Assembly (NCBI GenBank): GCA_000421325.1
Contig: ATWQ01000001.1
Span: forward strand, 62,001 to 126,000
Source of the DNA: an alpha proteobacterium SCGC AAA536-K22
GTDB lineage: Bacteria > Pseudomonadota > Alphaproteobacteria > Puniceispirillales > Marisalimonadaceae
DNA length: 64,000 bases
Reading direction: 5' to 3'
Positions within the stretch are counted from its first letter, which is position 1. Every line of letters starts with the position of its first letter. The position numbers and the translations under genes were made by a program. The notes beneath the pieces were generated by a model, which worked only from the letters and a program-made list of their open reading frames with translations, had not been told where the DNA came from and made no database searches. Of the stretch, positions 32,172-53,428 are shown piece after piece.

Positions 32172-35100
32172 ATGGCTTCCTTATTTGAGATTGGTAAAAC
32201 AGGGGTACAAGCTTACAGACAAGCATTATCTGTAACAGGCCAGAATATTGCTAATATAAATACTGAAGGATATAATAAAAGAAGTGCAGATATAAATGAA
32301 GTTGCTGGTGTATCTGGAGGCCCAACTAATGTTTCTGACAGCTCTGGGTTAGGAGTTAGAGTTACAAATGTAAGACGTTCTTTTGACGCTTATTTATCTG
32401 ATAAAACAAGGTCGTCTCAATCTGATTATGAAATGTTAAACGACTTTGTTTCAAAGTTAAGTGATTTAGAAAATATGTTATTGCCTTCTGGCAGTGATTT
32501 AGGGGTTTTCATAGGAAGGTTTTTTGATTCACTTCAGGAAATTGCGAGCAATCCAGATAGTGTTTCAGCTAGGACCATAGCCTTAGAGTCAGGCAAAGCC
32601 CTAGCTTCTTCTTTTAATAGTTATGATGATCAACTTAAAAATTTTAAATCTGGAGCACTACGTCAAATTGATGTAAAAAATACTGAAGTAAATTTATATA
32701 TAAATCAACTTGTACAAGTTAATAAGTTAATCGCCACAAGTGGATCAAAAGATGCATCAAATGACGTTTTAGATGCAAGAGATAAGTTATTAAAAGATTT
32801 ATCAAAGCTTATGAATTTTACAGTGGATTATTCTGATACGGGAGAAGCTATAGTTAGACTTGGAGACTCTGGAAATGGAGCATATCTAGTCAACAGAAAT
32901 AAAGGTGCAATAGTGTCATCCGCTTCAGATGGAAAAAACGTTTCACTAGTTGTTAATAATAATGGAGTAAAGACAACAGGTATATTTTCGTCAGGTATAC
33001 TAAGTGGAATATCACAATTTTATAGCTTAGTTGACTCAGTTAGTAGCGAAATCAGTAGTCTTGCAGAACAATTTTCCAATGAGATTAACAACGTACAGAC
33101 ATCTGGAATTGACTTAAATGGTAACTTGGGAAAGTCAATGTTTTCAGTTAATTCCATGGCGCCAAAAGCTAATTCTAATAATATAGGAACCTTAAACTTT
33201 AATATGATAGAAGGTAATCCAAGCAAGATAGCCCAAGAAAAAATTTTAGTAAGTTATTCTCAAGCAAACAATAATTGGCAAATAAGAAATTCAAATGGTC
33301 TTTCATTTGCTTATGGAAACAAAATTAATTTTGATGGATACCAGGTTGAAGTTTTAGGACAGCCAAAGAATGGAGATGGATTTGAAATTTCTCCTACATT
33401 GACAAAAGCTGGTGCAATGAAGTTTAATTTAAAAAGTGCTGAAGATTTTGCAGCAGCATCTCAGAATTTAGTTTCAAACAATTCGTCTAATGTCGGTAAT
33501 GTTGACCTAAATGTTATTGGCTCAGTTGTTCCCCCAAAAATAAATTTTCCAGAAAAAGTTGAAGATGTCTTTACTTCTAGTAGCAATCCTTTGGTTGCTA
33601 CTACTTTTCTAAAAGATGGTCCGGTAACAACAATTCCATCGTCAACTAAATCAATTAACTTAAGCTCATTAGGAAATCAGTCCTCTGGTACATTTACAAT
33701 TTCAGATGCCGACATTAAAGGTTTTTCCTCTTTTAATATCAAATTAGATAATACCAATGAAATTACTATTAACTCTGCATCCACTGATCCAGGAGACGGT
33801 ATAAAATCAGTAAAAGAATTTGCTGATCTATTAAATTCCGGCTTGATGTTAGACGGTAAAAGTCAACATGATTTTAAAAATTATGGCTTATTTGCCTCAG
33901 GTTCTAATGGATACCTTACAATAGCATCATCTGTATCAGATATTTCAAGTTCATCTATTTTATCAAAAGGTAATTCCTACACTCCTACAATATCAAATAT
34001 TACTGCTGCGTCGTCATTAGCAAGCAATATTCAGGTTTTTACAAGAGATGGAAGGCATGTGTCTGGAACATCATTAAATACAGCTGAAATAGCTTCGTTA
34101 ATTAAATCAGATAATGGTTTTTTAGAGTCGGCTGAATACAGAAATGATTATTTAAACAACAATTATAGAGGTATCAATTTATCTCGAAAAACTGTCAGTG
34201 GAGATTTTGTTAGAAACTTTGGCTCTAATATAAGTTATAATGAACAAGCAACAGACATGGATGGATTATTAACCTCAAAGACTGTTACTACGGGGTCTAT
34301 TTCTTTAGACGGTCTTAGAAAATATTCTAAAGAGTTAAATTCAAATATTTCAATTGCATGCGAAAAAGACGAGTCTGGTAGATCGTTCACTATTGCAGGT
34401 TATGATTTAGATGGACTTTATCAAACAGAAACTATTACAGGCGGAAATGCAACTACAGTAACTGGTTCTAAAATTTTTAGAAAAGTTTCTAATGTAAGTA
34501 TTGATGGAAATTCTGCTGGGAAAATAACTATTGGGACAGAAGCTGTCAGTAGTACACTAAAAATAACTAATGATGATAATGTAGTTAAAACTACAAACAT
34601 CCCCGTAGGTTCAAGTGCATATTATTTAGCTAATAAACTTAAAACTGAGTTAGCCGGTTCAGGTGTAAATTTGTCAGCTAGCACTAGTGTAATGTTAGGA
34701 CCATTAGATGAAGGTGTGAGTGGTGCATTTACTTTTGACTTAAAGGGTAAAAATACAGATTCAGTTTCCATAAATACAAGTGTGTCTGCGACAGATTTGT
34801 CTCTGCTTGCCAAAAGTATTAACGAGTACAGTTCTCAAACAGGTTTGACAGCAAATGTGACAGGTGATTTTAAAAGAATTATTATAACTTCAGAAGATGG
34901 TCACAACATCAACTTTAATAATGTTACTGCTCCTTCAGATTTTTATTTAGAAACTATAGGTCAGGATTTTACTAATTTAAATATTCAAACAAACCCAAAA
35001 TTATTGATAGATGTTAGTAATTCAAAAAAATCATCAGCAAATATTAAAGGGGAGATAAAATTTGTATCTAGTGAAAATTTTACTGTTCAAACTGATTCAG

Positions 35101-38100
35101 GTGTAGTTAGGTCATCTGTAGCAGATTCACTAAAAAATGGATATATAGATGTTCAAAGAAGTAAGACTGGTGAAATTGTTACAATTACCCCAGAAGTATT
35201 TAACAATCTTGATAATAGCTTAGGTTCGCCAGATGGTAAAAAAGCTACTGTTGGTTTATCCAAATATGGATTAGATATAAATCAAAAATATTACAAGTTG
35301 TACATTAGGGACGGTAATAGTTTATTTGAAAGCGCAAACCCAGGCGTAGCAGGAACTTTGTCTCTTGATGGAAAATTAAAAGATGCAAATAATTTAAATG
35401 CTATTGTAAGTATCTATTCTACTGCCAGTGAAACAGGTAACACATTTACAGTTACAGGAACTAATTTAGCTGGAACAATCATTACAGAAGCTATTACAGG
35501 AGGTTCGACTGGTGAAAGAGTTTATGGCTCTACTGTTTTTCAAACCATAACATCCATAACAACTTCAGCCACAGCAAGTGGTAATATTAAAATAGGTACT
35601 TATGGATATAATGCCATAAATGACGACGATAGTTTAGTAGAATGGACTTCTTTTTCATCAGGATCAATTTCAATGGATGGCGTGTTATCCACAGCGGATT
35701 ATCTTGGAGCTAAAATTAAAATTAAAAGTCAACAAGATACAACCGGCACAAGTTTTGTTGTCGCTGGTTTGGGTTTAAATAATGAGGTTATAACAGAGAC
35801 TATAACTGGATCTAATGGGGGTATAGTAACCACATCAAATATTTTTAAAACGGTGACGTCGATAAATTCTTCAGGGACTAGCAATGGTAACATCCGAATA
35901 GGTACCGAAGCAGCAGATGGAGATTGGAATACTACCATAGATGCAAACGCATTAAATATTGATACTCAAAAAGATATATCTTCGGCGCTTTTAAGCTCAC
36001 TTAGATCAGAAACCCCAACTTCTCAGTTAAAAGGTATTGTCCTAAATTCTCTACCAAGCGAAGGTCAGTCTGTTGATTTGAGTTTTGAAGGACAGGTTTA
36101 TTCACTGAAAATGGTTTTAGGTGAATTATTTGTTGAAGGACCAGAAGAAAACAGAATTAAAGCACGATTTAATGGTACATCAGAAAATATATCAAATTTA
36201 ATTGCCACCTCCCAAACTGGAACTGCAGCTACATCTCTAATTATTAATGGTTTAAATTCTGTGGCGGCAGATTCTAATGGGCTTGTCGAGCTCATGAATC
36301 CATCAGGGGCAGGTGTGATTTCTAGAGATGGGGCACTGAAAGATAGCACATCTTTAAATTCTAGAATAACAATTAAAAATCGTGATAACGATGATAATAC
36401 TGCTTTTAAATACACTATTACTGGTACTGATCAAGACGGTAATGTAATAACTGATGTAATTACTGGTGTTAATGGTGACAATGCAGTTAATACAGGAACT
36501 AAAGTTTTTAAAACAGTTACTGAAGTGAAAGTTGATGGTGACTCAGGCGAAATTGAAGTTGGAACCATACCTGCATTTGCTTCATCCTCAGGAACAAGAG
36601 TTTCAATAACTTCAACAGGAAATGAAAGTGAAAACACTTTCACTATTGTAGGGACAGATACTGATGGACTAAGTAAAACTGAAACTATAGCTGGACCTAC
36701 TTCAGGTAAAACTGTTTCATCGTTAGGTTTGTTCAAAACAATTACATCAATTACTCCAACCTCTAATACGGTTGGCAATGTTGAAATAGGAACATCGCCA
36801 GGATATGAACTAATAGCAACAGCTGAAGGAACCATTGAAGGAGCTCAATTTAAAATAGTACCAACAACAACAAATGTTAATAATTCTCAATCTTTTGGTT
36901 TAAAAACAGCAACTACAACAGTGCTAGGAAACTTTGTTGCACAACCACTAGCCAATTCAGAAGGTGTTAATAGGCACGCTTTAGGAATTGAGGTGACTGA
37001 GAATGACGTAGTGTCGAATTATTCAATTAAATTTAATAATAGTAATATTCCTGTTTTTTATGATAGCACAGGTACAGTAGTTAGTGCGTCTCCGCCGACT
37101 GGTATAACCCTCTCCTGGAGTGAATCGTCTGGCACAACTGACGATGATTCAATCTATAACTCTAATATGTCTGCAGGAGTTGCTATTATTACAAGTGGTA
37201 TCTTGTCTACTACTGACGATGACAGCCTTTTTACAAGTAAATCAGCAACAGCAGGAGACTTGGTCTTAGATGGACCTCTTGAAAGTTCTAAGGCTTTAAA
37301 TGGAAAAGTAACGATATTTTGCAATGGAAATGAGACAAGTAACTCTTTTGTTGTAAGCGGTTATGATCTTTCGGGTGTTTACAAAACTGATACAATTTCG
37401 GGGGTAAATAATACAATAGCCACAGGGAGCATTTCCTTCAGTGAGATTATATCTATTTCGGCTGCAAGTAGTACTGCAAGCACAATTAAAGTCGGAACAC
37501 AGGCTACTCAAGTTACAATGGACCCTCAAGTTATTACAATTACACCGGCTGGCTCTGATGTAGGAGAAAAATATACAATTACTGGTTTAGATCAGTTTGG
37601 TAAAAGTCAAACTGAAGTTATAACAGCTCAAGCAGCTGGAACTAAAGTTATAGGTGAAAAAGTTTTCACACAGATCACATCAATCGTTCCAGCAAGCGCA
37701 TCTGCCTCGACAGTAAAAGTAGGAACTCAAAAAGTTGGTCGATTATCAATAAGTCATACTATTGATAAGCTTGACTTTAAAGTTGACGGTAACCCCCGTG
37801 CTAATAATATTTTTGGCTTTAAAACTGAAAATATTAGAGCTGTTGTAGATAATGATGGTCTTAAAGTATCGTCATTTTCAGGTGTTCCAGTAAAGGTTGA
37901 TATTCCAAGCAACTCTATACAAAACTCAGTTGCAGAAAAAATAAGTTTAGATAATTTGCCGCCAGAAGATTTAATAACTATTGTAGTGGGTACTGGAGCA
38001 AGAAAAATAAGTGCAGAATTCGATCATTATGCTGAAAATGACAACGTGGAGACAGCTTCAATACCAGAGTTGACTATTAAAGTTGACGCTACAAACAATA

Positions 38101-38573
38101 ATAAGGTTGAGATTTTTGATAAGAAATCAGGTCATTCAATTGCGTCAAGAATTTTAGATGTTAATAGGGTATTTGATGTAAATAATACTAAATTTCAATT
38201 CTCTGAAGCTACTGTTGTCAACAACAGTTTTGAGTTTTCAAGTAATAAAGATGGTTTTGGAGACAATAGAAATATTATAAATCTTTTAAATCTTCAAGGA
38301 TCAGATAAATCAGGAGGAAATAAAGGTAATTTCCAAGAAATATTTAATACTACAGTTGCCAAGGTTGGTTCAAACGTTCAAGCAAGTCAGTTATCACTAG
38401 ATTCAGCATCAAGTACTTTAGATGCTGCAGAGGCAAGTCAAAGTGAGTTTGCGGGTGTTAACTTGGATGAAGAGGCCGCTCATCTGCTCGAGTTTCAACA
38501 AGCATACCAAGCTTCGGCACGAATTTTGCAGACTGCTAAAGAAATGTTTCAATCTTTAATAGAGGTTGTATAA
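32172..38573 (+). CDS. flgK: Giant hook-associated protein FlgK (2133 residues)
   Basis: The hook-filament junction protein, three to four times the usual 500-700 residues. N-terminal: YRQALSVTGQNIANINTEGY with NKRSADI; the D1 helices run to about residue 330. The C-terminal DEEAAHLLEFQQAYQASARI with LQTAKEMFQSLIEVV is canonical. Residues about 700-1860 hold around seven copies of a module with the signature GTDxxG, TETITG, FKTVTSI and a final IGT. Another shared unit (FDLKGKNTDSVSIN onward) lies near residue 850. The single frame is intact over 6.4 kb. It probably shares the flgG transcript. Confidence 0.93.
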   Translation: MASLFEIGKTGVQAYRQALSVTGQNIANINTEGYNKRSADINEVAGVSGGPTNVSDSSGLGVRVTNVRRSFDAYLSDKTRSSQSDYEMLNDFVSKLSDLENMLLPSGSDLGVFIGRFFDSLQEIASNPDSVSARTIALESGKALASSFNSYDDQLKNFKSGALRQIDVKNTEVNLYINQLVQVNKLIATSGSKDASNDVLDARDKLLKDLSKLMNFTVDYSDTGEAIVRLGDSGNGAYLVNRNKGAIVSSASDGKNVSLVVNNNGVKTTGIFSSGILSGISQFYSLVDSVSSEISSLAEQFSNEINNVQTSGIDLNGNLGKSMFSVNSMAPKANSNNIGTLNFNMIEGNPSKIAQEKILVSYSQANNNWQIRNSNGLSFAYGNKINFDGYQVEVLGQPKNGDGFEISPTLTKAGAMKFNLKSAEDFAAASQNLVSNNSSNVGNVDLNVIGSVVPPKINFPEKVEDVFTSSSNPLVATTFLKDGPVTTIPSSTKSINLSSLGNQSSGTFTISDADIKGFSSFNIKLDNTNEITINSASTDPGDGIKSVKEFADLLNSGLMLDGKSQHDFKNYGLFASGSNGYLTIASSVSDISSSSILSKGNSYTPTISNITAASSLASNIQVFTRDGRHVSGTSLNTAEIASLIKSDNGFLESAEYRNDYLNNNYRGINLSRKTVSGDFVRNFGSNISYNEQATDMDGLLTSKTVTTGSISLDGLRKYSKELNSNISIACEKDESGRSFTIAGYDLDGLYQTETITGGNATTVTGSKIFRKVSNVSIDGNSAGKITIGTEAVSSTLKITNDDNVVKTTNIPVGSSAYYLANKLKTELAGSGVNLSASTSVMLGPLDEGVSGAFTFDLKGKNTDSVSINTSVSATDLSLLAKSINEYSSQTGLTANVTGDFKRIIITSEDGHNINFNNVTAPSDFYLETIGQDFTNLNIQTNPKLLIDVSNSKKSSANIKGEIKFVSSENFTVQTDSGVVRSSVADSLKNGYIDVQRSKTGEIVTITPEVFNNLDNSLGSPDGKKATVGLSKYGLDINQKYYKLYIRDGNSLFESANPGVAGTLSLDGKLKDANNLNAIVSIYSTASETGNTFTVTGTNLAGTIITEAITGGSTGERVYGSTVFQTITSITTSATASGNIKIGTYGYNAINDDDSLVEWTSFSSGSISMDGVLSTADYLGAKIKIKSQQDTTGTSFVVAGLGLNNEVITETITGSNGGIVTTSNIFKTVTSINSSGTSNGNIRIGTEAADGDWNTTIDANALNIDTQKDISSALLSSLRSETPTSQLKGIVLNSLPSEGQSVDLSFEGQVYSLKMVLGELFVEGPEENRIKARFNGTSENISNLIATSQTGTAATSLIINGLNSVAADSNGLVELMNPSGAGVISRDGALKDSTSLNSRITIKNRDNDDNTAFKYTITGTDQDGNVITDVITGVNGDNAVNTGTKVFKTVTEVKVDGDSGEIEVGTIPAFASSSGTRVSITSTGNESENTFTIVGTDTDGLSKTETIAGPTSGKTVSSLGLFKTITSITPTSNTVGNVEIGTSPGYELIATAEGTIEGAQFKIVPTTTNVNNSQSFGLKTATTTVLGNFVAQPLANSEGVNRHALGIEVTENDVVSNYSIKFNNSNIPVFYDSTGTVVSASPPTGITLSWSESSGTTDDDSIYNSNMSAGVAIITSGILSTTDDDSLFTSKSATAGDLVLDGPLESSKALNGKVTIFCNGNETSNSFVVSGYDLSGVYKTDTISGVNNTIATGSISFSEIISISAASSTASTIKVGTQATQVTMDPQVITITPAGSDVGEKYTITGLDQFGKSQTEVITAQAAGTKVIGEKVFTQITSIVPASASASTVKVGTQKVGRLSISHTIDKLDFKVDGNPRANNIFGFKTENIRAVVDNDGLKVSSFSGVPVKVDIPSNSIQNSVAEKISLDNLPPEDLITIVVGTGARKISAEFDHYAENDNVETASIPELTIKVDATNNNKVEIFDKKSGHSIASRILDVNRVFDVNNTKFQFSEATVVNNSFEFSSNKDGFGDNRNIINLLNLQGSDKSGGNKGNFQEIFNTTVAKVGSNVQASQLSLDSASSTLDAAEASQSEFAGVNLDEEAAHLLEFQQAYQASARILQTAKEMFQSLIEVV
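34275..34550 (+). repeat. FlgK decoration module copy A
   Basis: Encodes GSISLDGLRKYSKELN, SGRSFTIAGYDLDGLYQTET, ITGG, GSKIFRKVSNVSIDG and KITIGTEA. First copy of the module family shared with FliD and two flagellins. Confidence 0.75.
35350..35920 (+). repeat. FlgK decoration modules B and C
   Basis: B encodes TLSLDGKLKDANNLN, TGNTFTVTGTNLAGTIITEA, FQTITSIT and IKIGT. C follows almost at once with SISMDGVLSTADYLGAKI, SFVVAGLGLNNEVITETITG, FKTVTSIN and IRIGTEA. Confidence 0.75.
36308..36810 (+). repeat. FlgK decoration modules D and E
   Basis: D encodes VISRDGALKDSTSLNSRI, YTITGTDQDGNVITDVITG, KVFKTVTEV and EVGT. E follows within a few codons: NTFTIVGTDTDGLSKTETIA, LFKTITSITPTSN and VEIGT. 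Confidence 0.75.
37245..37740 (+). repeat. FlgK decoration modules F and G
   Basis: F encodes DLVLDGPLESSKALNGKV, SFVVSGYDLSGVYKTDTISG and IKVGTQA; its FKTVTSI position is degenerate (FSEIISISA). G encodes KYTITGLDQFGKSQTEVITA, KVFTQITSIVPASAS and VKVGTQ. Confidence 0.75.
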
Positions 38574-38593
38574 AATTTAAAGTGGTTAACTAA

Positions 38594-39874
38594 ATGCAAA
38601 TAAGTTCAAAATTATTTAATCAACAACAATTAAAACAGTTTTCATCTACAACTGAAGAACTTCAGGATCTTCAAAATAAAATCGCCACAGGTGAAAATAT
38701 TTTAAGAGCATCAGATGATCCTGTTGGTTCAGTTGAATTATCAGGTTTGAATGTTGTAAAAAAACAAATTGAACAATATGAAAGAAATGTTAACTCCGCT
38801 AATGATAGATTAACGCTGTTGGATAAAAACTTAGAAAATTTATCAAATATCATGGTAAGAGCTCAAGAATTATTAATACAGGCTTCCAGTGACGTTTTAG
38901 GCGCGTCAGACAGAGAGTCTATAGCTCTTGAAATAGACGAGATGAAAGAAGAAATATTGAGTGTTGCTAATGCTCAAGACAGTAATGGAAGTTATTTATT
39001 TAGTGGTTATAAAACTAGCATAATTCCATTTGTTAAAGATATCGCAGGCAGTATAAATTATAAAGGCGACAGGGGTATAGCTTCTTTATCAATATCTGAA
39101 TCACGCGTCATGGAAACCACGCTTGATGGAGGCACATTATTTCAAGCAGTTAAGGGACCCACAGGAGAAAATGTATCTGTATTTCAGATGTTAGAAGATA
39201 TTAGTTATTCTATTAGAACTGCATCAGGCGGAGTGAACTCTGTCAAAGCAACTGGAGTGGCTGAGCTCACCTTTGAAAACAAAAATCCTGGAACTTGGTC
39301 TTTTGATCTTACAGGTAACTTAGGAACAGCAACAATTACAACTGAAATCACAGGTGAAGATCCTTCTGAATTTGTGAAACAAATAAATTTAAGTTCTACC
39401 GGTGTTACTGCAACTATTAATGACGATGGAAAGACAATAAAACTATCTGACTCGGTTAATGGGCCTATGGAGATAAAAAACTTATCCGTATACGGTATTA
39501 ATTCAGCCCAAAAAAATCCTTCATCATTTTTTCAAGTCCAACCAATAGACGGATCAGGAAATAGTATAGGTACTATGCAAAAATTATTTGATAATAATCA
39601 ACTACCTTCAAAACAATTAGATAATGTAGCCTCAACACAAGTTCACATATCTAACAATAGGGGGGAAATTGGTGCTCGAACAAATTCTCTTACAAGGCAA
39701 ACAGAACTACTAGCAAATAGAAGATTAGGTGTTGAAAAGGACGTTAGTGATTTAAAAGATGCCGATTTAGCTGCTTTAGTTACTAATCTTCAAAGTATGT
39801 TAACATCTATGCAAGCAAGTCAACAATCTTTCGTTAAAATTTCACAATTAAACTTATTTGATTATTTAAGATAA
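38594..39874 (+). CDS. flgL: Hook-associated protein FlgL
   Basis: A 426-residue protein, somewhat larger than typical (300-400). The N-terminal flagellin-like helices include LQDLQNKIATGENILRASDD and the C-terminal LAALVTNLQSMLTSMQASQQ. An inserted beta unit at about residues 215-300 (WSFDLTGNLGTATITTEITG) resembles a unit also found in FlgK and flagellin 2. It does not carry the FKTVTSI module. It ends the axial operon and is convergent with the next gene. Confidence 0.9.
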   Translation: MQISSKLFNQQQLKQFSSTTEELQDLQNKIATGENILRASDDPVGSVELSGLNVVKKQIEQYERNVNSANDRLTLLDKNLENLSNIMVRAQELLIQASSDVLGASDRESIALEIDEMKEEILSVANAQDSNGSYLFSGYKTSIIPFVKDIAGSINYKGDRGIASLSISESRVMETTLDGGTLFQAVKGPTGENVSVFQMLEDISYSIRTASGGVNSVKATGVAELTFENKNPGTWSFDLTGNLGTATITTEITGEDPSEFVKQINLSSTGVTATINDDGKTIKLSDSVNGPMEIKNLSVYGINSAQKNPSSFFQVQPIDGSGNSIGTMQKLFDNNQLPSKQLDNVASTQVHISNNRGEIGARTNSLTRQTELLANRRLGVEKDVSDLKDADLAALVTNLQSMLTSMQASQQSFVKISQLNLFDYLR

Positions 39875-39882
39875 TTTAACTA

Positions 39883-40365: not shown

Positions 40366-40440
40366 TTAATCACCTATTAATTTAAAATATCAATTATATA
40401 TAAGATAAATAAACTTTTTATTTAGTAAATCAATAGTATT

Positions 40441-42781: not shown

Positions 42782-45397
42782 ATGACTGTAGATTATCTCA
42801 GTGCAATCAATCAAGGCGGTAGTGGTTTAAATATAACTCAAATCGTAGATAGTCTTGTGGAGGCTGAACAAGCACCTCAAGAAAACCAAATTCAAACTAA
42901 AATTGATGCAAGAAACACTGCCATATCTGCAATTGGCGAAATAAAAAGTGCATTATCCAAACTTTCAACCTCTTTAACAACGCTCACAGGTAATACATCC
43001 TTAAAAGTTAATTCAACAAGTTCGGCCATTAGTGCAACTATATCTGATCCATCTACTGCTGTTGCAATAAATTCTACAATTAGTATTTCAACATTGGCAA
43101 AAGGACAAACTTTAGCGTTTGAAGACTATGCATCAAATACGTCTCTTGTAGGTGCTGGCAGTCTTGTGCTTGAAAGAGGAGACTGGTCTTCTGGTAGTTT
43201 TGTTGCGAGCCCGACAGTGACTTCTAATTCATTAACCGTAACGGCGACAGATACGCTTGAATCATTAAAAGATAAAATTAATGCATTAAACTATGGAGTA
43301 ACTGCAAGTGTCTTAGGTGCAGGTGACGATACATATACTCTTGTACTGAAGTCACAAGATGGAAAAGAAAACGCTCTAAGAGTAACAGCTACCGAAAGTC
43401 CATCTGGATCTGGCTTGTCGACTATAGATAATACAACTACAAATGGTTCTAAACAGAAACTTGCCGGAACAGACGCTGCTTTTACTGTTGACGGAATTTC
43501 ATTAACCAGGTCTTCAAATACCATAAAAGATCTTTTCAGTGGATATAATGTAAATTTACTTGCATCAACAACAGTTAATAGTGTTGACACACCTGCAAGT
43601 TTAACTGGATCAGTAGATAACAGTACAGCTACTACAAACCTTCAATCTTTTATAACAGCTGTGAACGACGCAAGAACGCTATTAAATGATAAAACTTTTC
43701 GAGGTTCATCAACTCAAGGCGCAGGAGATTTGTCAGATGATCCTGTAATTAAAAGTATCCAAAATCAATTAAAGTCTCTTACTTCTACTCAATTAACTGG
43801 ATTTGGAGCAAATGGTGTTTATTTATCAAATCTTGGAGTAAGGACTGAAAAAGATGGTCTTCTTAGTTTAAACACTACAACACTTGAAAATGAGTTAAAA
43901 AATAATCCAACATCTTTAGATGCAATATTTAACTCTATGTATTCATCTTCATCTAGTCTTCTAACAGCTAGTGGAGCAGCTACTTCTGCTCCTGTTGCGG
44001 GGTCATATGCTTTTGCTATGACAGCTTATGTTTCGGGTGCTTTTACAGGGCTAGCTAGTAGTGATACGTCACCGCAAGTAACGGCATCTGATAATACTAT
44101 TCAAGTAACAGTTGATGGAACCCAATCAGGATCAGTAAGTGTTCCAGCCGCTCACTATACTTCAGAGGCGGCACTTGCTACCGCAATTCAAACAGTTATA
44201 AATGCAGATAGTACATTGAGTGCAGCAGGAAAATCTGTTGTTGTAACTCACTCAAATGGTAGTTATTCTGTTACTTCTGGCTCAATTGGTTCGTCATCGT
44301 CAATGGTTGTAAACGCTATTGGTAGTAACTTAGATGGTTTTCTTAAGTTTGTAGGAACAACTGATGCTGATAATATTGGTACAACTCAATCAGGAACTGG
44401 AAGCACAGCCTTAACATTAAATGGTGCTTCTGTAACGACAACTGATCCTGACGGTTTAGTTGATGCTGAAACAATAAATGGTTCGGGCACATTTGTAATT
44501 GATGGAAACCAATCCAGCGCTGCTTCGAGCAGCTTAAATTCTTTTGTAACAATAAACAGTGCTAACAATTTGTCTTCTGTTTCTTTTACAATTACAGGTA
44601 CTGACATTAATGGCACTTCGCAAAATGAAATAATAACAGGTCCAACTGGAGGGACAACCGTAACTGGGTCAAAAATCTTTAAGACAGTTACGCAGATTGA
44701 AGCAAATGGTGCTGCTGCAGCTGTAAATGTAGGCACTAAATCAGCTTATGTTGATCTGACTGGTAAAAGACCTTCAATTGTAAGCGCTAGTGGTGATGAA
44801 AGTGGTAAGACATTTACAGTTGTTGGAACTGATATGGCTGGTAATGCTCAAACAGAAGTTATTACAGGGCCTGCCGCTAACGCCACAGTTCTTGGCTCTA
44901 AGACGTTTCAAACTATATCATCCATAACACCATCCGCCAATACAACAGGTTCTATTACTATGGGGTTTACAGGAGTTGGAATAACAACTACTGGGGTTAC
45001 TGGATCAGCTACTCTTGACAGTGTTGCAATGGTTGCTGATGTTGCTAATAACACCTTTACAATTTCATCAGGTAATGCTGCCGGGTTGAAAGTGAAATAT
45101 TCAGGTTTAGGTGCAGACGCAACTATCTATTATGGGCAAAGTCTTATTGAAAAATTAACTACATTTTTAACCGACACCCTTAATACTTCAAGTGGACAAT
45201 TATCTACAAGAGAAACAACAATTAATAAAGAAGTCACTGATCAATCAGCATTATTAGTTGACTTGAATGCTCAAATGAAATCTTTAAGAGAGCGATATAT
45301 ACAGCAGTTTACTAGCATGGAACAGGCTGTAACAAGTCTAAAGTCTACTGGTGAGTATTTAACTAATCTCTTAGATGCTATGAACAAGGATGATTAG
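42782..45397 (+). CDS. fliD: Enlarged filament cap protein FliD (871 residues)
   Basis: The filament cap and flagellin-folding protein, about twice the normal 450-500 residues. N-terminal: SGLNITQIVDSLVEAEQAPQ; C-terminal: LLVDLNAQMKSLRERYIQQF with TSMEQAVTSLKSTGEYL. Residues about 587-735 contain two copies of the GTDxxG/ITG/FKT(V/I) module also present in FlgK and two flagellins. It is a single gene with both a sigma-54 and a sigma-28 type promoter in front. The next intact gene is 650 bases away. Confidence 0.93.
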   Translation: MTVDYLSAINQGGSGLNITQIVDSLVEAEQAPQENQIQTKIDARNTAISAIGEIKSALSKLSTSLTTLTGNTSLKVNSTSSAISATISDPSTAVAINSTISISTLAKGQTLAFEDYASNTSLVGAGSLVLERGDWSSGSFVASPTVTSNSLTVTATDTLESLKDKINALNYGVTASVLGAGDDTYTLVLKSQDGKENALRVTATESPSGSGLSTIDNTTTNGSKQKLAGTDAAFTVDGISLTRSSNTIKDLFSGYNVNLLASTTVNSVDTPASLTGSVDNSTATTNLQSFITAVNDARTLLNDKTFRGSSTQGAGDLSDDPVIKSIQNQLKSLTSTQLTGFGANGVYLSNLGVRTEKDGLLSLNTTTLENELKNNPTSLDAIFNSMYSSSSSLLTASGAATSAPVAGSYAFAMTAYVSGAFTGLASSDTSPQVTASDNTIQVTVDGTQSGSVSVPAAHYTSEAALATAIQTVINADSTLSAAGKSVVVTHSNGSYSVTSGSIGSSSSMVVNAIGSNLDGFLKFVGTTDADNIGTTQSGTGSTALTLNGASVTTTDPDGLVDAETINGSGTFVIDGNQSSAASSSLNSFVTINSANNLSSVSFTITGTDINGTSQNEIITGPTGGTTVTGSKIFKTVTQIEANGAAAAVNVGTKSAYVDLTGKRPSIVSASGDESGKTFTVVGTDMAGNAQTEVITGPAANATVLGSKTFQTISSITPSANTTGSITMGFTGVGITTTGVTGSATLDSVAMVADVANNTFTISSGNAAGLKVKYSGLGADATIYYGQSLIEKLTTFLTDTLNTSSGQLSTRETTINKEVTDQSALLVDLNAQMKSLRERYIQQFTSMEQAVTSLKSTGEYLTNLLDAMNKDD
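44540..44985 (+). repeat. FliD decoration modules, two copies
   Basis: Copy 1 encodes VSFTITGTDINGTSQNEIIT, TVTGSKIFKTVTQI and VNVGT. Copy 2 encodes KTFTVVGTDMAGNAQTEVIT, TVLGSKTFQTISSI and ITMGF. They are more like each other and FlgK copies than like any other part of FliD. Confidence 0.8.
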
Positions 45398-45449
45398 GTA
45401 GGTAATTTAAGAGTAAGCTGTTTAAATTTAAAAAACTTAAATTTTTATT

Positions 45450-46049: not shown

Positions 46050-46370
46050 ATGCAACATTTGATAGAGGAAAATAAAATATATACGACTAAAAATGTTAAA
46101 TCATTTCAAAGTTTAATTGATCATTTATTACAGTTTTTAGAAAATAGACAGTTCAAAGAAGCAGAAAAGATTGCTTTGATAATAATAAAAAAATACCCTC
46201 AGCATCAATTTACTTGGAAATGTCTTGGCGCGATTTTGCAACAAACTGGTAGATTGTCACAAGCTATAACTGCTACACAAAAAGCTATAATATTATCAAA
46301 AAAAGATCATGAAGCTTACTATAATTTAGGTTTAATGTTTCAAGAAATAGGAAAAAAACAAAGAGGCTGA
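46050..46370 (+). CDS. TPR-SGNH protein, N-terminal fragment before a frameshift
   Basis: 106 codons encoding the first TPR units (HQFTWKCLGAILQQTGRLSQ, HEAYYNLGLMFQEIGKK). The frame ends at a TGA just after a run of seven A (46352-46358). One additional A would give GKKNKEAEKCYKNAI and continue without a stop into the large ORF downstream. The two parts are therefore one gene broken by a one-base deletion, a slippage site, or a sequencing error in a homopolymer. No strong ribosome-binding site is seen. Confidence 0.65.
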   Translation: MQHLIEENKIYTTKNVKSFQSLIDHLLQFLENRQFKEAEKIALIIIKKYPQHQFTWKCLGAILQQTGRLSQAITATQKAIILSKKDHEAYYNLGLMFQEIGKKQRG

Positions 46371-46542
46371 AAAATGTTATAAAAATGCTATTACCTTAAA
46401 CCCTAATTTTATTGTTGCTCATATTAACTTAGGAAATGTTTTCAGAGCTTTAGGTAAAAAAAATGAGGCAGAAACAAGTTATAGGAGAGCTATATTTTTA
46501 AGTCCTAATTGCATTGATGCATACAATAATCTTGGAATTACT

Positions 46543-47949
46543 TTGCGAGAACTAGGCAGATTAGAAGAATCTGAAATAATCCTTAAAAAAGCTATTTTTT
46601 TAAATCCAAATTTCTCTGAAGGTTACTGTAATTTAGGAGAAACTTTAAAAATTTTAGGTAAGTTAGCAGAAGCAGAAATATGTCTTAAACAAGCAATCAC
46701 CTTAGATCCAACTTATGTTAATGCATTGAACAATTTGGGGGTTATTTTACAAAAATTAGGTAAATTAAAAGAATCTGAAAGGGTTTTAAGAACGACCATA
46801 AGTTTACAACCTAATCTTCCTGAAGCCCATTATAATATTGGTAACACTCTAAAAAAGAATAGAAAATTAGAAGAAGCTGAATTAAGTTTTAAGCAGGCAT
46901 TAATTCATGATCCTAATTATGCTGAAGCATATAATAATCTGGGAAACTTACTCTTAAAACTAGGTAAGTTTGAAGATGCAGAGACAAATTTAAGAATAGC
47001 TATATTAAAAAGGGAAAATTTTGAAGAAGCTATAATTAATCTTTCATTATTATTAGACTATAAAAATGATTTAGACGAATCAACCAAATTATTAGAGAGT
47101 ATTTTGAAAATAGGTTCTAGTAAGTATACCTTGAAAGCAGCAGTTAATCTTGCAATATTTAGTTTTTTAGAATGTGAATTCTCATCATGTAAAAAACTTT
47201 TAAAATCTTCTTCTAATATTAATAAAATAGCATCTTTTGGATTTAAAAATGAAAAGATTTATCATAGCTTTCTTCTCAAAATTATAAATTCTTCTAAAAC
47301 TTTTAATACTAATAGCATTAGTTTATTTGATTGCCAGAAGTTTTATATAATTGGAGATAGTCATTCTTTAGTTAATCATAATCAATCTATATCGATTTTA
47401 GAAAAAAACTTTGTTTGTCATGCATTATTAATCAAAGGCTGCATGCAATGGCATTTAGGTAATAATGTTATAAATAAGTATAAAATTAAATTTGAAGCTC
47501 TTTTTCGATCAATTCCAAAGTATAGCAACATTTTGTTATCAATTGGTGAGATTGATTGCAGGTTGAATAGTGGTATTTTAAAATATAAAGAAAAACATAA
47601 ACTTAAAAACACCAAAGAATTAATAACGAAAACAATAGATAATTATTTTAAATATATTAATAATTTAAATCTAAAATTCGGACATAATATTATTATCCAA
47701 GGAGTGCCGTGCCCAAACATAAATAATATTTCAAAAAAAGATCTGTTTGAATTAATAAATGTTATCAAAATTTTTAATAGTGTATTGAAAACAATGTCAT
47801 TTGAAAAAGGTTATGGTTTTCTTGATTTACAAAAATTAACTGATAGAGGTGATGGCTTTTCTAATGAAATTTGGCATTTGGACGCAATACATATATCTCC
47901 CCAAGGAATGCAGAAAGCATGGAGCGAATACAAGATAAAACTATGCTAG
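46543..47949 (+). CDS. TPR-SGNH protein, main part (possible flagellin-modification enzyme)
   Basis: The frame is open from 46360, directly after the A run; the first start-like codon used here is a TTG inside a TPR, so it is not a natural start. The numbering from this start shows TPR units to about residue 190 (AEICLKQAITLDPTYVNALN and similar), a helical linker, then an SGNH-hydrolase-like domain: GDSHS at 271-275, GEIDCR at 335-340, HLDAIHISPQG near 446. SGNH enzymes act as esterases or acetyltransferases on glycans. Its position between fliD and flagellin genes suggests modification of flagellin or surface polysaccharide. Confidence 0.7.
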   Translation: MRELGRLEESEIILKKAIFLNPNFSEGYCNLGETLKILGKLAEAEICLKQAITLDPTYVNALNNLGVILQKLGKLKESERVLRTTISLQPNLPEAHYNIGNTLKKNRKLEEAELSFKQALIHDPNYAEAYNNLGNLLLKLGKFEDAETNLRIAILKRENFEEAIINLSLLLDYKNDLDESTKLLESILKIGSSKYTLKAAVNLAIFSFLECEFSSCKKLLKSSSNINKIASFGFKNEKIYHSFLLKIINSSKTFNTNSISLFDCQKFYIIGDSHSLVNHNQSISILEKNFVCHALLIKGCMQWHLGNNVINKYKIKFEALFRSIPKYSNILLSIGEIDCRLNSGILKYKEKHKLKNTKELITKTIDNYFKYINNLNLKFGHNIIIQGVPCPNINNISKKDLFELINVIKIFNSVLKTMSFEKGYGFLDLQKLTDRGDGFSNEIWHLDAIHISPQGMQKAWSEYKIKLC

Positions 47950-48018
47950 TTTTGTGTTTAATATTGAACTTTCATAAAACTAATTGGTACCAAACAATAT
48001 ATTTGATTAAAAAAAAGC

Positions 48019-48044
48019 TAAACATATTTAGACAAAGTCGTATT
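48019..48044 (+). promoter_or_regulatory. Possible sigma-28 promoter of flagellin 1
   Basis: TAAA, 14 bases, GTCGTATT: one base shorter in spacing than the flgM and fliD boxes. It lies 84 bases before the ATG. No sigma-54 box is seen upstream of this gene. Confidence 0.45.
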
Positions 48045-48128
48045 AGATGATGAACATTTTCGTTTTAGTCTAATAACACATTTGAAGATGTTCCTAAAAA
48101 CTATTTTATATTATGGAGACATCTTATT

Positions 48129-51100
48129 ATGAACAGTATAAATACAAATATGAGCGCCCTTCAAGCTCAAGCTAATATGAAGGAACAAAATGATTCAATG
48201 AATGATGCAATGGCAAGGTTATCATCAGGATTAAGAATTAATTCAGCTGCAGACGACGCTGCTGGATCAGCTATTGCATCAAAAATGGAAGCTCAAGTTA
48301 GAAGTTTGGACGTAGCAATTAGGAATTCATATGATGCTATTTCAATGACTCAAACCGCTGAAGGTGCTCTTGGCGAAATGGAAAATATTCTACAAAGAGT
48401 TAGAGAATTATCAGTACAAGCAGCTAATAGTACATTATCAGTTACTGATAGATCAATGATACAGTCTGAGGTAGACGCTCTTGTTAAAGAAATTGATGCT
48501 ATTGCATCAAATACTCATTTTAATAATGTTAAATTATTAGATGGTTCAAATTCAGAAGTTTCCTTTCAAATCGGTATAAAGGCTACCGACTCTCTAAAAG
48601 TGAGCTTACAGAATTCAGACTCAACTTCATTAGGTCTTTCAGGATCTACAGGTGTTGCATCTTTAACAAGTTCTAGAATGGAAAAAACTACTTATAACAC
48701 TGCTAGCATTGCAGCTAGTGATGTTAAAATTAATGGTTTTGATGCATTTGCTTCAGCATTCGCAGAAAACCTATCAGCAACAACTACCAATACAGCAAAA
48801 ACTATAGCTGATAAAATTAATTTAAACACTGGCGTTCATGGAGCAAATGCAAACGCATTTAACACATTTACTTCTGATGCAATGGGAACCTTTAACATGG
48901 AGGCTGCTTTCACAATAAATGGTGAATCTGTTTCTCTTGCTAACTCATATTCTGATCTTGTATCAAATATAAACGAAGCTGTTTCTGGTGTTAATGCTGC
49001 TCTTAATGCAGATAATTCTATAACACTGAGTAATACTACTGGTGCGGATATTGTTATTAATGGTGGAGCTACTGTAGGTTTTACGTCTTCAGCACAAACT
49101 TTCACAGGATTTATTGAACTTAATAATCTTGACGGATCTGAGGTAACTATTGAAGCTGGTTCTGTTAAAAACGGATATACTGGTGGTGCTGGTACACTTG
49201 CAGACCTTCAAGGTCTAGGTTTTAATGAATTTAGTACTGGTGGTGTTTTAGAAACTGATACAGTAAGTGGTACAGCTTTAACAGCAAATGAGTTGAAAAT
49301 AAATGATATATTTATTGGAGAATCAACAACAGGTGCTGCCAATAATATTGCTGCTGCTATTAATGAAAAAACCGCGGAACATGGTGTGACTGCAGATGCA
49401 GAAAACGAAATTGAATTAACTTTTAATTACAATGCAGGTCCATCAACATCTACTGATTTTAAAATTAATGGCCAGGCTATTGATCTAACTAGTGCATCAA
49501 GTGCTGCAAATGTTGTTACTGCAGTAAATGCAGCAAACGTTGGAGATATAAGAGCTTCTGCTAATTCTGACGGAACTGTTAAACTTTCTAGCGACAGTGG
49601 TGTTGATATTGTTGTAGCGAATTCTGACAATGACATGCTCATATCTGCTAAAGATATCCATGGAAATTCTCTTGTAGATGGGTTTTCTAATGGAGTATTT
49701 GACTTAGATGGTCTTGTTGCTGCACATACTGTCACTACAGTAGCTTCTCAGGAAATCGATGTTTCTGCAAGTTCATTGTTAAATGAAGTTGTTAACTCAA
49801 GAGCTGTTATAACATATAATGCAGCCGCAGAGTATGCTGACTCAACATCTGAGGGTATCGTTGTAAGAGGTACAGATTCAACTGGTACTGCTATTTCAGA
49901 AACTATACTTCATAAGAATGGTACAGCAGCAATTGGTGATCAAATATTTGGAACAACAATTTTCCATACAGTTACTTCAGTGACAAATACTTCAACTACA
50001 CCTCTTGCAGGTGGGACAATAGATATTGGTTTAGCTGGAAGTGAAGTGAAGAGTAACTTACATTCTGTTACTTCAGCAGAATCTGCTGGAGCTATATCTT
50101 TAAATGGTTCTCTTGCCAGCTCTGATATTAATGGTTTCATTAAAATCACACAAGCTCAAAACGTAACCCAAACTTTTGCAGTTGAAGGTGTTGGATTTAA
50201 TGGTGAAGCTCTTACTGAGACTATTACAGTAGGTGCAGCCACAAATACTACTGCAACAAGTAAAGAGTTATATAGATCTGTTACTTCTATTACTGCAGGT
50301 GGTACAACTGCTGCTACTTTAGATATAGGTGTAACTACAGTAAGTGAAAAGGCATTGCACTCAGTTGCAGCTGCTACTGCTGCAGGTACTTTAACATTGG
50401 TATCTGGAGGTCAGGAAACTTATAAAGAAAATCTCGGTGGAGCTAAAATTATCATTGACGGTAAAGGTGGTAACTATAGTAGCACTGCTGCGGTTAAGTT
50501 TACAGTTACTGGTACAGATCAATTCGGTGCCACACAAACTGAAGACATTACTCTTGATAAGGTAACCGGAAATGTTCATGGTTCTAAAATCTTTAACTCT
50601 GTAACAAGTATCGTAACTGATAAAGTTTTACAAGCTGCAGGTGTAGATATCGGTATAGTTAAAACCGGAGATAGACTTGAATCTAAAGGTAACATGACAT
50701 TATCAAACGGTGACAATAGTCCAATTAAAATTGAGGCTGTAGGTGATGATGATACAGATGGAATAAAATCAGGTGGAGTTTCTGATACAATTCTTCAAAA
50801 GTTAGGTGTTAAAAATCAAAGTCAGTCTTTTGAAGTATCAGGCCAAGGTGTGTCTGTTTCAACAGAAGCTCAGGCTAATTCCTCTCTTGCTAAAATTGAT
50901 AGTGCTTTAGACCAACTATCCTTATTCAGATCATCATTTGGTGCTGTTGAGAATAGAATCGACGCGTCTATCAATAATGCTACTACTTTGAAGATTAACA
51001 CTGAAGCTGCAAAATCAAGAATACAAGATGCTGATTTTGCTGCAGAGACATCAAAAATGACTAAGAGTCAAATTTTGTCTCAAGCTGCTACTTCAATGTT

Positions 51101-51152
51101 AGCTCAGGCTAATGCTTCAAAGCAAAACTTGTTAGCTCTTCTTCAAGGATAA
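48129..51152 (+). CDS. Giant flagellin 1 (1007 residues)
   Basis: A filament subunit with standard ends: MNSINTNMSALQAQANMKEQ and LSSGLRINSAADDAAGSAIA at the N-terminus; ARIQDADFAAETS-like SRIQDADFAAETSKMTKSQI and MLAQANASKQNLLALLQG at the C-terminus. Between them lie about 800 residues. These include two flagellin-IN-type units (ASDVKINGFDAFASAF and TANELKINDIFIGES) and three decoration modules at about 557-849. GGAG precedes the ATG and a strong terminator follows, so it is monocistronic. The export chaperone is presumably one of the two FliS proteins. Confidence 0.95.
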   Translation: MNSINTNMSALQAQANMKEQNDSMNDAMARLSSGLRINSAADDAAGSAIASKMEAQVRSLDVAIRNSYDAISMTQTAEGALGEMENILQRVRELSVQAANSTLSVTDRSMIQSEVDALVKEIDAIASNTHFNNVKLLDGSNSEVSFQIGIKATDSLKVSLQNSDSTSLGLSGSTGVASLTSSRMEKTTYNTASIAASDVKINGFDAFASAFAENLSATTTNTAKTIADKINLNTGVHGANANAFNTFTSDAMGTFNMEAAFTINGESVSLANSYSDLVSNINEAVSGVNAALNADNSITLSNTTGADIVINGGATVGFTSSAQTFTGFIELNNLDGSEVTIEAGSVKNGYTGGAGTLADLQGLGFNEFSTGGVLETDTVSGTALTANELKINDIFIGESTTGAANNIAAAINEKTAEHGVTADAENEIELTFNYNAGPSTSTDFKINGQAIDLTSASSAANVVTAVNAANVGDIRASANSDGTVKLSSDSGVDIVVANSDNDMLISAKDIHGNSLVDGFSNGVFDLDGLVAAHTVTTVASQEIDVSASSLLNEVVNSRAVITYNAAAEYADSTSEGIVVRGTDSTGTAISETILHKNGTAAIGDQIFGTTIFHTVTSVTNTSTTPLAGGTIDIGLAGSEVKSNLHSVTSAESAGAISLNGSLASSDINGFIKITQAQNVTQTFAVEGVGFNGEALTETITVGAATNTTATSKELYRSVTSITAGGTTAATLDIGVTTVSEKALHSVAAATAAGTLTLVSGGQETYKENLGGAKIIIDGKGGNYSSTAAVKFTVTGTDQFGATQTEDITLDKVTGNVHGSKIFNSVTSIVTDKVLQAAGVDIGIVKTGDRLESKGNMTLSNGDNSPIKIEAVGDDDTDGIKSGGVSDTILQKLGVKNQSQSFEVSGQGVSVSTEAQANSSLAKIDSALDQLSLFRSSFGAVENRIDASINNATTLKINTEAAKSRIQDADFAAETSKMTKSQILSQAATSMLAQANASKQNLLALLQG
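49797..50675 (+). repeat. Flagellin 1 decoration modules, three copies
   Basis: Copy 1: GIVVRGTDSTGTAISETI, TIFHTVTSVTN, IDIG. Copy 2: AISLNGSLASSDINGFIKI, FAVEGVGFNGEALTETIT, YRSVTSITAGG, LDIG. Copy 3: KFTVTGTDQFGATQTEDIT, GSKIFNSVTSIV, VDIG. All align to the FlgK/FliD module. Confidence 0.72.
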
Positions 51153-51171
51153 TTTGGAGATAATAAGAGAG

Positions 51172-51200
51172 AAGGCCACCTCAGGGTGGCCTTTTTTTTT
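51172..51200 (+). terminator. Rho-independent terminator of flagellin 1
   Basis: AAGGCCACC, loop TCAG, GGTGGCCTT, then a run of T. It is GC-rich against an AT-rich background and lies between convergent flagellin genes. Confidence 0.9.
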
Positions 51201-51214
51201 ATGAGAAAATTAAA

Positions 51215-53428
51215 TTAGTTTTGTAATAGTTGTAGTACATTCTGCTGTGCTTTTCCTGCCTGAGCTATCATAGCCATAGCAGACTGTTGCAAAATTTGGG
51301 CTTTGGTTAATCTAGCTGATTCTTTTGCGAAATCAGCATCTTGAATTCTTCCTCTGGAGGCATTTGTATTTAAAGCAACGTTTGATAGATTATCTATCGC
51401 TTTTTCCATTCTACTCATTAAAGCACCTAATTTAGCTCTTTCTTTGTGAATTCTATCCAAAGATCTATCTAAAACACGTAATGCGTCTACAGACGATTGT
51501 CTTGTTTTCACGTTTACAGCAGATAATTTATCTAGTGAAGCTGCCCCTGGGGAAGCTTCAAATAAACCTTTGCCATCTTCACCAACAACAGTGAAACTAT
51601 TACTTGACGACATTTCTAACTGACCAGTAACTATTACTGAATCAGCTGCTTTTACACCGATAGTAATCGCACCTGTGGTTGCAGCTGAAGATGCAACAGT
51701 ATGAATTGTTCTAAATATTTGTCTTCCAGTCACAGTAGCGTTTGCTGTTGGACCTGTAATAATTTCAGTTAGAGAAGCTCCATCCATTCCAGTTCCAGTT
51801 ACAGTAAAAGTTTTTCCACTTTCGTCACTTGCTGAACTAGTTATAGTTACAAGAGCTGCCTGATTAACAATCGTATTTAAAACACCAACTTTTACATTTG
51901 CATCTGCATCAACAGCTGACGGTTTAACAGATGTAACAGTAGCAAAAATATTTGTTGACTGTGCAGTAGCAGCGCCAGCAAAAACTGGAATGGTTTCTTC
52001 AAGTGCATCACCATTTAGGTCAGTACCAGTAATCTTAAAAGTTCCATCAGTGGCTGCATCGGATGTTATAGTTATAAAAGAGTTATGAACGGTAGCTGTA
52101 TTAATCATCGTCATTGTTTGTGTGCCAGTAAACCCTGCTGCAATAGTTTGGGATGCAACAATAGCGTCATCATCAGTTGCTTTACTAAGAGGCCCCGAAG
52201 AGTTAAACGCAGTTGGGGTTGTTGTTCCAATCCTTCCACCAATTGTAATTACACCACCAGGTGTCCCTGTGTAAATCCCATCAACGTCAGTGGTTGTCGC
52301 ATTTGTGTCACCAAGCAAGACGGCATTTCCAGCAACTGCTTCATCATTATCCAAACTAGTTACCATTAATGTTCTTCTAGATCCTGTTGTAGTAGTGTCG
52401 CCGTCAAAATTAACTGTGCCCAACTTTATGTCATAACCTTCATTCTGAACCATTATTATAGATGATTTATCAGTTGAAAGAGTTGCTGTAATGCCAGTAG
52501 TAGTTGTATAATTATTTATAGAATCTCTTAAATTAGATAAAACAGAACTAGCCTTATTATTACTTAGTGTAATATTTGCAGCGATAGTTGTTGCAGTTGC
52601 ATTTTTACCTTGAATACTAAATGACAAACTAGTCTGACCATTATAGGCATCGTCTAATGATTTAGCCTCTAGTTTTAATTGTGTTGATGCAATAGCACTA
52701 ACACCTGTAGCATTAAATACGGCATTAACTGAAGTAGCAATATCTCTAACATTTGACCCAGCAGCAGCTGTAACACCTGAGCTTCCCAATATTCCGTGTA
52801 TTGTAAATGTTTCAGCTTGGACTAAATTTGTTTCAGTTGTGTCGGCGACTGCATAAGCGTTTAATGCTAAGTTATCATTTTTGCCTGACGTATCTGTTCC
52901 ATCTGACTTAGCTTTATATGCTCCCAGTGAATCTAATCTCATTGATGAAATTGACAGTGAAGCAAATTCTCTTTCGTGAGTTCCAATTTGAAAACGTCTA
53001 TCGGCAAAAGAGCCGTCTAAAACGGCTATTTCATTAAATGTCGTATCTCTTGTTACTCTATCTAATTCAGCCAACATCTGAATAACTTCCGCATCCAGGT
53101 AAGATCTTTCTTCAGCATTCATAACATCAGAAGCTGATTGTATTGCCAATTCACGAATTCTTTGGAGTATTGCAGAGGACTCATCTAAAGCGCCCTCTGT
53201 AACTTGGGCCATTGAAATAACATCGCCAGCATTTCTAACAGATTGTTCTAATCCTTTAATTTGTGCGGTCATTCGATCTGCAATTGCAGCTCCAGCTGCA
53301 TCGTCACCTGCGTGATTTATTCGTTTACCCGATGATAAACGTTCCATAGCCTGAGTCATATCACGTTCAGTGATTGTCATCTTATTAAGCGCAAACATTG
53401 CTGCACTGTTAGAATTTACTGTTGGCAT
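51215..53428 (-). CDS. Large flagellin 2 (737 residues)
   Basis: Start set at MPTVNSNSAAMFALNKM with GGAG upstream; the longer frame starts at a TTG. N-terminal helices include AMERLSSGKRINHAGDDAAG; the C-terminal end is RGRIQDADFAKESARLTKAQ with AQAGKAQQNVLQLLQN. The interior has the LSFSIQGKN unit shared with FlgK and FlgL and two decoration modules at about 433-593. Unlike the other two flagellins it has a sigma-54 promoter, so it may be made earlier and lie nearest the hook. It is convergent with flagellin 1. Confidence 0.94.
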   Translation of the reverse strand: MPTVNSNSAAMFALNKMTITERDMTQAMERLSSGKRINHAGDDAAGAAIADRMTAQIKGLEQSVRNAGDVISMAQVTEGALDESSAILQRIRELAIQSASDVMNAEERSYLDAEVIQMLAELDRVTRDTTFNEIAVLDGSFADRRFQIGTHEREFASLSISSMRLDSLGAYKAKSDGTDTSGKNDNLALNAYAVADTTETNLVQAETFTIHGILGSSGVTAAAGSNVRDIATSVNAVFNATGVSAIASTQLKLEAKSLDDAYNGQTSLSFSIQGKNATATTIAANITLSNNKASSVLSNLRDSINNYTTTTGITATLSTDKSSIIMVQNEGYDIKLGTVNFDGDTTTTGSRRTLMVTSLDNDEAVAGNAVLLGDTNATTTDVDGIYTGTPGGVITIGGRIGTTTPTAFNSSGPLSKATDDDAIVASQTIAAGFTGTQTMTMINTATVHNSFITITSDAATDGTFKITGTDLNGDALEETIPVFAGAATAQSTNIFATVTSVKPSAVDADANVKVGVLNTIVNQAALVTITSSASDESGKTFTVTGTGMDGASLTEIITGPTANATVTGRQIFRTIHTVASSAATTGAITIGVKAADSVIVTGQLEMSSSNSFTVVGEDGKGLFEASPGAASLDKLSAVNVKTRQSSVDALRVLDRSLDRIHKERAKLGALMSRMEKAIDNLSNVALNTNASRGRIQDADFAKESARLTKAQILQQSAMAMIAQAGKAQQNVLQLLQN
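51650..52130 (-). repeat. Flagellin 2 decoration modules, two copies
   Basis: In the reading direction, copy 1 encodes GTFKITGTDLNGDALEETI, NIFATVTSVKPSA and VKVG. Copy 2 encodes KTFTVTGTGMDGASLTEIIT, TVTGRQIFRTIHTV and ITIG. Copy 2 is close to FliD copy 2. Confidence 0.75.

Follow-up and report, generated by a model that had tools for sequence, protein, structure and literature searches.

The closest described systems to the one considered here are the hypervariable D2/D3 regions of flagellins and the giant flagellins of more than 1000 aa, in which variable, sometimes duplicated inserts are placed between conserved helical ends (PMC6248924, PMC7018530). The window of this study, meaning the whole stretch of 64,000 nucleotides from positions 62,001 to 126,000 of contig ATWQ01000001.1 (forward strand), from the alphaproteobacterium SCGC AAA536-K22, contains a flagellar gene cluster that is unlike them: one module recurs in the junction protein FlgK, the cap protein FliD and two flagellins, and this module has relatives in phages. 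The words phage, FliD and FlgK are absent from the main text of PMC6248924. The best explanation is that a phage virion domain was recruited to flagellar outer regions, multiplied there, and used for multivalent binding; taken as a whole this is on balance probable. Its separate parts differ in strength, with the recruitment very likely, and the multivalent binding, on its own, a tentative proposal about function.

The window contains 14 copies of the module, seven in FlgK, two in FliD, three in flagellin 1 and two in flagellin 2, and profile searches confirmed both these counts, already given in a preliminary description made from the sequence alone, and the homology of the copies. The copies were excised by eye and aligned before profile building. 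With profiles that left out one protein at a time, all 14 were recovered, at 19.5-70.5 bits (E 4e-4 to 5e-20, Z = 10,000), the first copy of flagellin 1 having the lowest score, while the top score in the shuffle control (2,400 shuffled proteins, four models) was 11.7 bits. A search of the organism's own genome, which is ~80% complete, with the 14-row alignment returned exactly these copies at E <= 0.001. The module had been described as absent from FlgL, flagellin 3 and the rod proteins: accordingly, no significant match was found in FlgL (38594-39874, in the same cluster), in flagellin 3 (54774-56783, named from its translation and blastp) or in FlgE, and none at E <= 0.001 in the rest of the ~80% complete genome, including any rod proteins in it. 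Identity between copies is 22-55%, and the likeness between proteins can equal that within one, with the second FliD copy (D2) sharing 55% with the second copy of flagellin 2 (F2b) and 50% with the second of FlgK (K2). By eye, eight copies form tandem pairs of a long and a short member (K4-K5, K6-K7, D1-D2 and F2a-F2b), and the second members of these pairs are the four copies missing the SLDG N-terminal strand. None of the Pfam models matches the modules, the PHROG matches touching them are weak (E 0.34 for part of K2, E 0.21 for F1a), and NCBIfam has no model of the module, the whole-flagellin models that span F2a in flagellin 2 being below cut-off. No description of the module was found in the open-access literature searched.

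In known flagella, the parts of these proteins between the conserved ends form the outer surface, and Pfam boundaries place the modules between conserved N- and C-terminal parts in all four proteins. Given as window positions (contig coordinate minus 62000), FlgK (32172..38573, forward strand, 2133 aa; TIGR02492 flgK_ends, E 5.4e-72) carries its modules at residues 709-1854, between FlgK_D1 (96-324) and a Flg_bbr_C match (2092-2130). All on the forward strand, these are the single long copy K1 (34296..34541), the long copies K2 (35355..35603) and K3 (35664..35909), and the pairs formed by the long K4 (36318..36569) with the short K5 (36582..36797), and the long K6 (37257..37505) with the short K7 (37530..37733). 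In FliD (42782..45397, forward strand, 871 aa), the long D1 (44489..44740) and short D2 (44765..44971), also on the forward strand, occupy residues 570-731 between two FliD_C-matching stretches, the first ending at about residue 388 and the second following the pair; the pair is present as previously described, although its earlier start of 44540 was slightly late. Flagellin 1 (48129..51152, forward strand, 1007 aa) has F1a (49761..50036, the weakest copy), F1b (50094..50336) and F1c (50394..50660) on the same strand at residues 542-845, and flagellin 2 (51215..53440, reverse strand, 741 aa) has the pair of F2a (51878..52105) and the short F2b (51650..51859), likewise on the reverse strand, at residues 440-598, in both cases between Flagellin_N and Flagellin_C. 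This position between conserved ends leads us to expect that the modules are displayed on the filament, junction and cap. There are two insertion sites in FliD, because in one relative (locus L067) a module at residues 163-241 follows FliD_N (15-110) and precedes an uninterrupted FliD_C (335-635), whereas the pair in the window interrupts FliD_C; the FliD module of another genome (G031) likewise precedes an unbroken FliD_C. Some genomes of the family have a FliD without the module among the matches listed, such as G074 and G076 (660 aa).

Scans of viral contigs with single-module queries found 18, 120 (80 kept) and 53 relatives, giving 151 loci, to which the record of Pelagibacter phage HTVC023P was added to make 152. 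Identity of these viral relatives reaches 62%, and a direct profile-profile comparison of flagellar and phage modules gave 99.2% probability over 81 columns (E 7.9e-20, as a single comparison), supporting their homology. The module profile recovers all 152 loci, which is no surprise, modules having been the queries. As controls, non-module outer segments of FliD and FlgK found no relatives in the same viral collection. A tblastn search with whole FliD gave no phage match at E <= 1e-3. It was also considered whether the viral matches were misfiled flagellar contigs; this was ruled out, as no flagellar ends were found (blastp, E 1e-3) in the 152 loci, nor in the 51 viral loci sharing a second module, from FlgE, described below. 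Many of the viral modules are near-identical, such that 40 sequences remain after thinning at 0.80 similarity.

Most of the 155 viral open reading frames (ORFs) carrying the module are small, with 137 of 160-260 aa, six of 261-500 aa, nine longer and three cut. Of 140 small carriers, 108 are preceded on their own strand by a gene for a phage head-protein homologue, 196-3133 bp away (median 924 bp); among the remaining 32, 29 begin no more than 1.3 kb from where the available DNA ends. Three of the head-protein seeds (from loci L071, L048 and L129) match phrog_371, at E 7e-22, 1e-7 and 2e-8 respectively, and the fourth seed is annotated as the capsid protein in HTVC023P. In that phage the carrier is gp42, the second gene after the capsid gene, which the FliD-pair and phage queries together reached at E 0.02, 9e-21 and 0.2, weakly with a flagellar query (E 0.02) and strongly with a phage query (E 9e-21); the main text of the pelagiphage genome paper mentions neither decoration, cement nor gp42 (PMC9599517). 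A PHROG scan covered three larger viral carriers, of which one of 881 aa (L050) matches phrog_376, a tail protein family (E 4e-92), and two of 721 aa and 578 aa (L034 and L137) match phrog_5107, annotated as lysis (amidase); genes neighbouring the 721-aa carrier match tail and tail-fibre PHROGs. Hence the earlier resemblance to tail or fibre proteins of marine phages was real in so far as phages carry the module, but the commonest carrier is an ORF of 160-260 aa on the head side, rather than a tail fibre, which points to a possible role for this ORF near the head-protein gene. By eye, the phage modules sit before differing C-terminal parts, and a VCBS_repeat match in one phage ORF (L046; E 0.0073, just over the cut-off) falls outside the module. 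Two viral ORFs (L048:5470-6501 and L239:576-1523) contain two modules in tandem, recalling the long and short flagellar pairs. An identification of the phage ORF as a cement protein through phage DSL-LC04 was withdrawn, as the match shares its reading frame with the gene that follows the annotated cement protein.

Structure prediction, proposed as a check in the preliminary description, gave an all-beta fold for the FliD pair, with a mean predicted local distance difference test (pLDDT) of 88.4 and a predicted template modelling score (pTM) of 0.75 (AlphaFold, five models at 84.9-88.4, from an alignment using 23 of 27 printed pairs), and likewise for the phage ORF (pLDDT 84.6, pTM 0.82, from an alignment of 25 hand-picked viral ORFs). 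Together with the leave-one-out profiles, this fold supports common ancestry of the copies. Searched with Foldseek against the viral predicted structures of BFVD, the FliD pair had five matches that reached E <= 1e-3, the best at 4.7e-10, and those with a name, three in all, are proteins from uncultured Caudovirales phages; against the PDB, neither model reached E <= 0.001. A second look at solved structures ranked the BPP-1 cement protein (3j4u_H) highest for the FliD pair, with Z 5.8 over 86 aligned residues at a root-mean-square deviation of 3.4, a value shared with other, unrelated jelly rolls; for the phage ORF the top entry was XepA, with Z 7.4. The cement protein of BPP-1 has a jelly-roll fold (PMC3863775), and the XepA paper itself compares XepA with it (PMC6834076). 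Z values in this range may reflect no more than a shared arrangement. By sequence, no relative of the module was found among solved structures, and the A1 and A3 profiles matched no cement protein among solved chains.

Flagellar use of the module is nearly restricted to one family, among the genomes sampled. Within the order it was found in 48 of 136 genomes, 34 in the genus of the window (own genome included), 13 in three other genera of the same family and one in another family; at least 11 genomes of the window's family, many of them incomplete, have no match, and among the order's genomes that are at least 90% complete, six of 43 match. The class-wide and phylum-wide sets, which are samples of larger groups, each contain three matching genomes besides the own genome, out of 385 (a single match each; E 9e-13, 2e-12 and 5e-4) and 398 (E 4e-17, 2e-4 and 5e-4). 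One class-wide match (L150) is a 237-aa ORF adjoining a phage head-protein gene (phrog_371, E 9e-13), and a PHROG scan of three further loci (L152, L154 and L155) gave no match. In 35 SAR116-type loci (L015-L033 and L053-L068), which were fetched around module matches, every module-bearing ORF has its best match in FlgK, FliD, flagellin 1 or flagellin 2, with extra partial FlgK copies in some relatives. The FliD-pair query found 16 loci among genome contigs, at 44-80% identity, 13 of them labelled SAR116, and these relatives suggest that the host of the window is an alphaproteobacterium of the SAR116 cluster. The matching genome from another family of the order (G135) has a shorter FliD, as well as a second, split, module-bearing FliD on another contig (C110, C11), and therefore mis-binning or transfer is possible.

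Within this family, the arrangement of modules looks old, judged from the sequences. Each of the 14 window copies has its best match, among 111 copies in loci L053-L068, in the same flagellar protein (47-96% identity), with other flagellar proteins (38-59%) and 157 viral copies (40-58%) about equally distant. Because best matches stay in the same protein, copying between proteins looks older than the lineages examined. Hence the spread by module shuffling suggested in the preliminary description agrees with the several subunits and two FliD insertion sites involved, but it looks old. Across 14 comparisons, the rate of nonsynonymous change (dN) of modules lay at 0.14-0.19 for nine involving FlgK or FliD, at 0.36 (L067) and 0.55 (L068) for two further ones of FlgK, and at 0.29-0.41 for the three of flagellins. 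It was below the synonymous rate (dS) in all 14, with dS near or past saturation; the ratios are rough because of this saturation, and because four FlgK cores span only 74 of 404 residues. In one FliD (L065:5896-8547), the modules are more like those of the window than the core is (80% against 68%), the opposite of what the four remaining FliD comparisons show, and recombination is a possible cause.

A first, unrooted tree of 119 rows and 82 columns (viral modules thinned to 40 and L053-L068 modules to 61, with short matches omitted) showed strong clustering, the flagellar label changing five times and the viral label six times, against ~36 and ~34 in shuffles. Starred branches of this tree force at least two changes of the flagellar label, hinting at several origins of the flagellar copies. 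That idea was set aside following a second tree, from which 14 of the 119 rows were dropped as long or odd (four flagellar, six viral and four other): in it the flagellar label changes twice, and a single clade was not rejected (approximately unbiased test, p 0.386). Hence one capture followed by copying is allowed by these sequences. As the phage carriers are varied, whereas flagellar use is found in one bacterial family among the sampled genomes, we infer transfer from phage to flagellum.

In the mechanism that would unite these observations, the module is a beta domain of ~70-100 residues from phage virion proteins, which, in one or a few events in an ancestor of one SAR116 family, would have entered the outer parts of FlgK, FliD and two flagellins. 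Tandem duplication, frequently of a long and a short copy as a pair, would then have raised its number, and it would have been copied between flagellar genes prior to the split of the lineages examined, after which copies would mostly have been inherited in place. Many small beta domains on the filament, junction and cap would be suited to multivalent weak binding of an extracellular ligand, such as a polysaccharide on particles or cells, and the domain may provide the same service on the phage head.

Several observations weigh against this explanation. Gene order is what points to the presence of the phage ORF's product in virions, and in one locus (L147) the upstream neighbour has a weak match to a baseplate PHROG and none to a head family. 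The five models of the phage ORF spread widely in mean pLDDT (64.6-84.6), and the FliD pair is weak against the PDB, at a best Foldseek E of 0.039 and a second-look Z of 5.8. In 13 of the 14 comparisons, module dN exceeds that of the protein core. The first tree has weak support and no root, so that direction is unsettled by it, and second-of-pair flagellar copies fall on its viral side. Furthermore, the domain occurs beyond phages and flagella, in a BNR-repeat protein (L151) of another alphaproteobacterium, and twice in a 9,496-aa frame (L153 and L156; E 4e-17) of another (G787), perhaps a giant adhesin. These carriers, and the unrooted and poorly resolved tree, speak for an old surface domain that passed from bacteria to phages, or that reached both from another pool, for instance giant adhesins. 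Such a reverse or shared origin is nevertheless improbable, given that viral modules are varied even after thinning and stand before different C-terminal parts, and that, in the genomes sampled, flagellar use is seen in one family plus one genome that may be mis-binned. A resemblance through low-complexity Thr/Gly/Ser sequence without common ancestry, which the richness of these proteins in T, S and G might suggest by eye, can be regarded as ruled out, with only a vanishing chance of being correct: all copies were recovered by leave-one-out profiles scoring above any shuffled protein, FlgL and flagellin 3 have no significant match, and two other central segments have no viral relative.

The main rival concerns function, rather than ancestry. 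In a structural sheath, modules would touch their neighbours, stiffening or thickening the filament, with the copies on cap and junction keeping the surface continuous. The BPP-1 cement protein that tops the second look dimerises through beta-sheet augmentation (PMC3863775), and other flagellins have outer-domain dimers and networks, according to two reports (PMC8931119, PMC10256154). The Z of that match is, however, tied with unrelated jelly rolls. There are few copies of FlgK and FliD per flagellum, yet these two proteins hold nine of the 14 modules, which a filament sheath would not need. A sheath is unlikely, if still the strongest competitor. Less likely again, and distinctly doubtful, is a decoy or phage-interaction surface, on which the flagellar domain would interfere with, or attract, phages showing the same domain. 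Flagellotropic phages exist (PMC10399903), phage genes close to the head-protein gene encode the same domain, and the modules outpace the protein core in all but one comparison. Conversely, module dN is below dS throughout, although with dS near saturation, copies keep their protein of residence, and the single named cultured carrier phage, HTVC023P, infects Pelagibacter, with no sign that carriers infect SAR116. Multivalent binding by a recruited phage domain is the explanation preferred to both.

The same cluster includes a second module shared with phages, in the hook protein FlgE (23303..28387, forward strand, 1694 aa), which has none of the main module. Its three copies of ~60 residues (25424..25597, 26321..26512 and 26582..26758, all on the forward strand) have no detectable relation to the main module, and a 463-aa frame beyond the window contains a weak fourth copy. 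A 357-aa FlgE query found relatives in the 51 viral loci mentioned above, with identities reaching 65% in short segments, and the three-copy profile recovers 46 of these; FlgE also matches phrog_4406, a virion structural protein (E 5.6e-18). The sharing of the main module makes it plausible that flagellar surface domains can come from phages. A bolder and rather unlikely extension is that flagella draw their outer domains from phage virions quite generally, this SAR116 family having acquired the FlgE module separately from that of FlgK, FliD and the flagellins, so that much of the external flagellar axis would wear a phage-like coat binding the same environmental ligands as phage particles. 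Elsewhere in the cluster, the product of 46543-47949, between FliD and flagellin 1, appears by eye to have tetratricopeptide-like repeats and a hydrolase-like C-terminal part, and an Rfam scan of 32000-54000 gave no match reaching the gathering score.

This work therefore identifies a concrete pool of relatives, in phages, for one flagellin outer-region module, and finds that same module to be common to junction, cap and filament proteins, such that a direct binding test of a domain common to flagella and phages becomes possible. Among known systems, Flagellin_IN (PF07196) is similar in being a motif of axial proteins, present above the cut-off in flagellin 2 (residues 211-257) and below it in FlgL (237-281), but it neither matches nor overlaps any module region. 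PHROG_376 and PHROG_5107 are families of the larger viral carrier proteins, and not of the module. Capsid cement proteins, represented by Bbp16 of BPP-1 (3j4u), may share a beta-sandwich with the module, and the phage module gene is similarly close downstream of a head-protein gene; no sequence match was found among solved chains, the structural match is only at Z 5.8, and the phage module ORF differs in having a further C-terminal part. The mucus-binding capsid domains of the T4 Hoc type are Ig-like, and no Ig-like Pfam match was found in the flagellar proteins or in the phage ORFs scanned; the two are alike in the proposed display of many weak binders on one particle (PMC11853027, PMC6867891).

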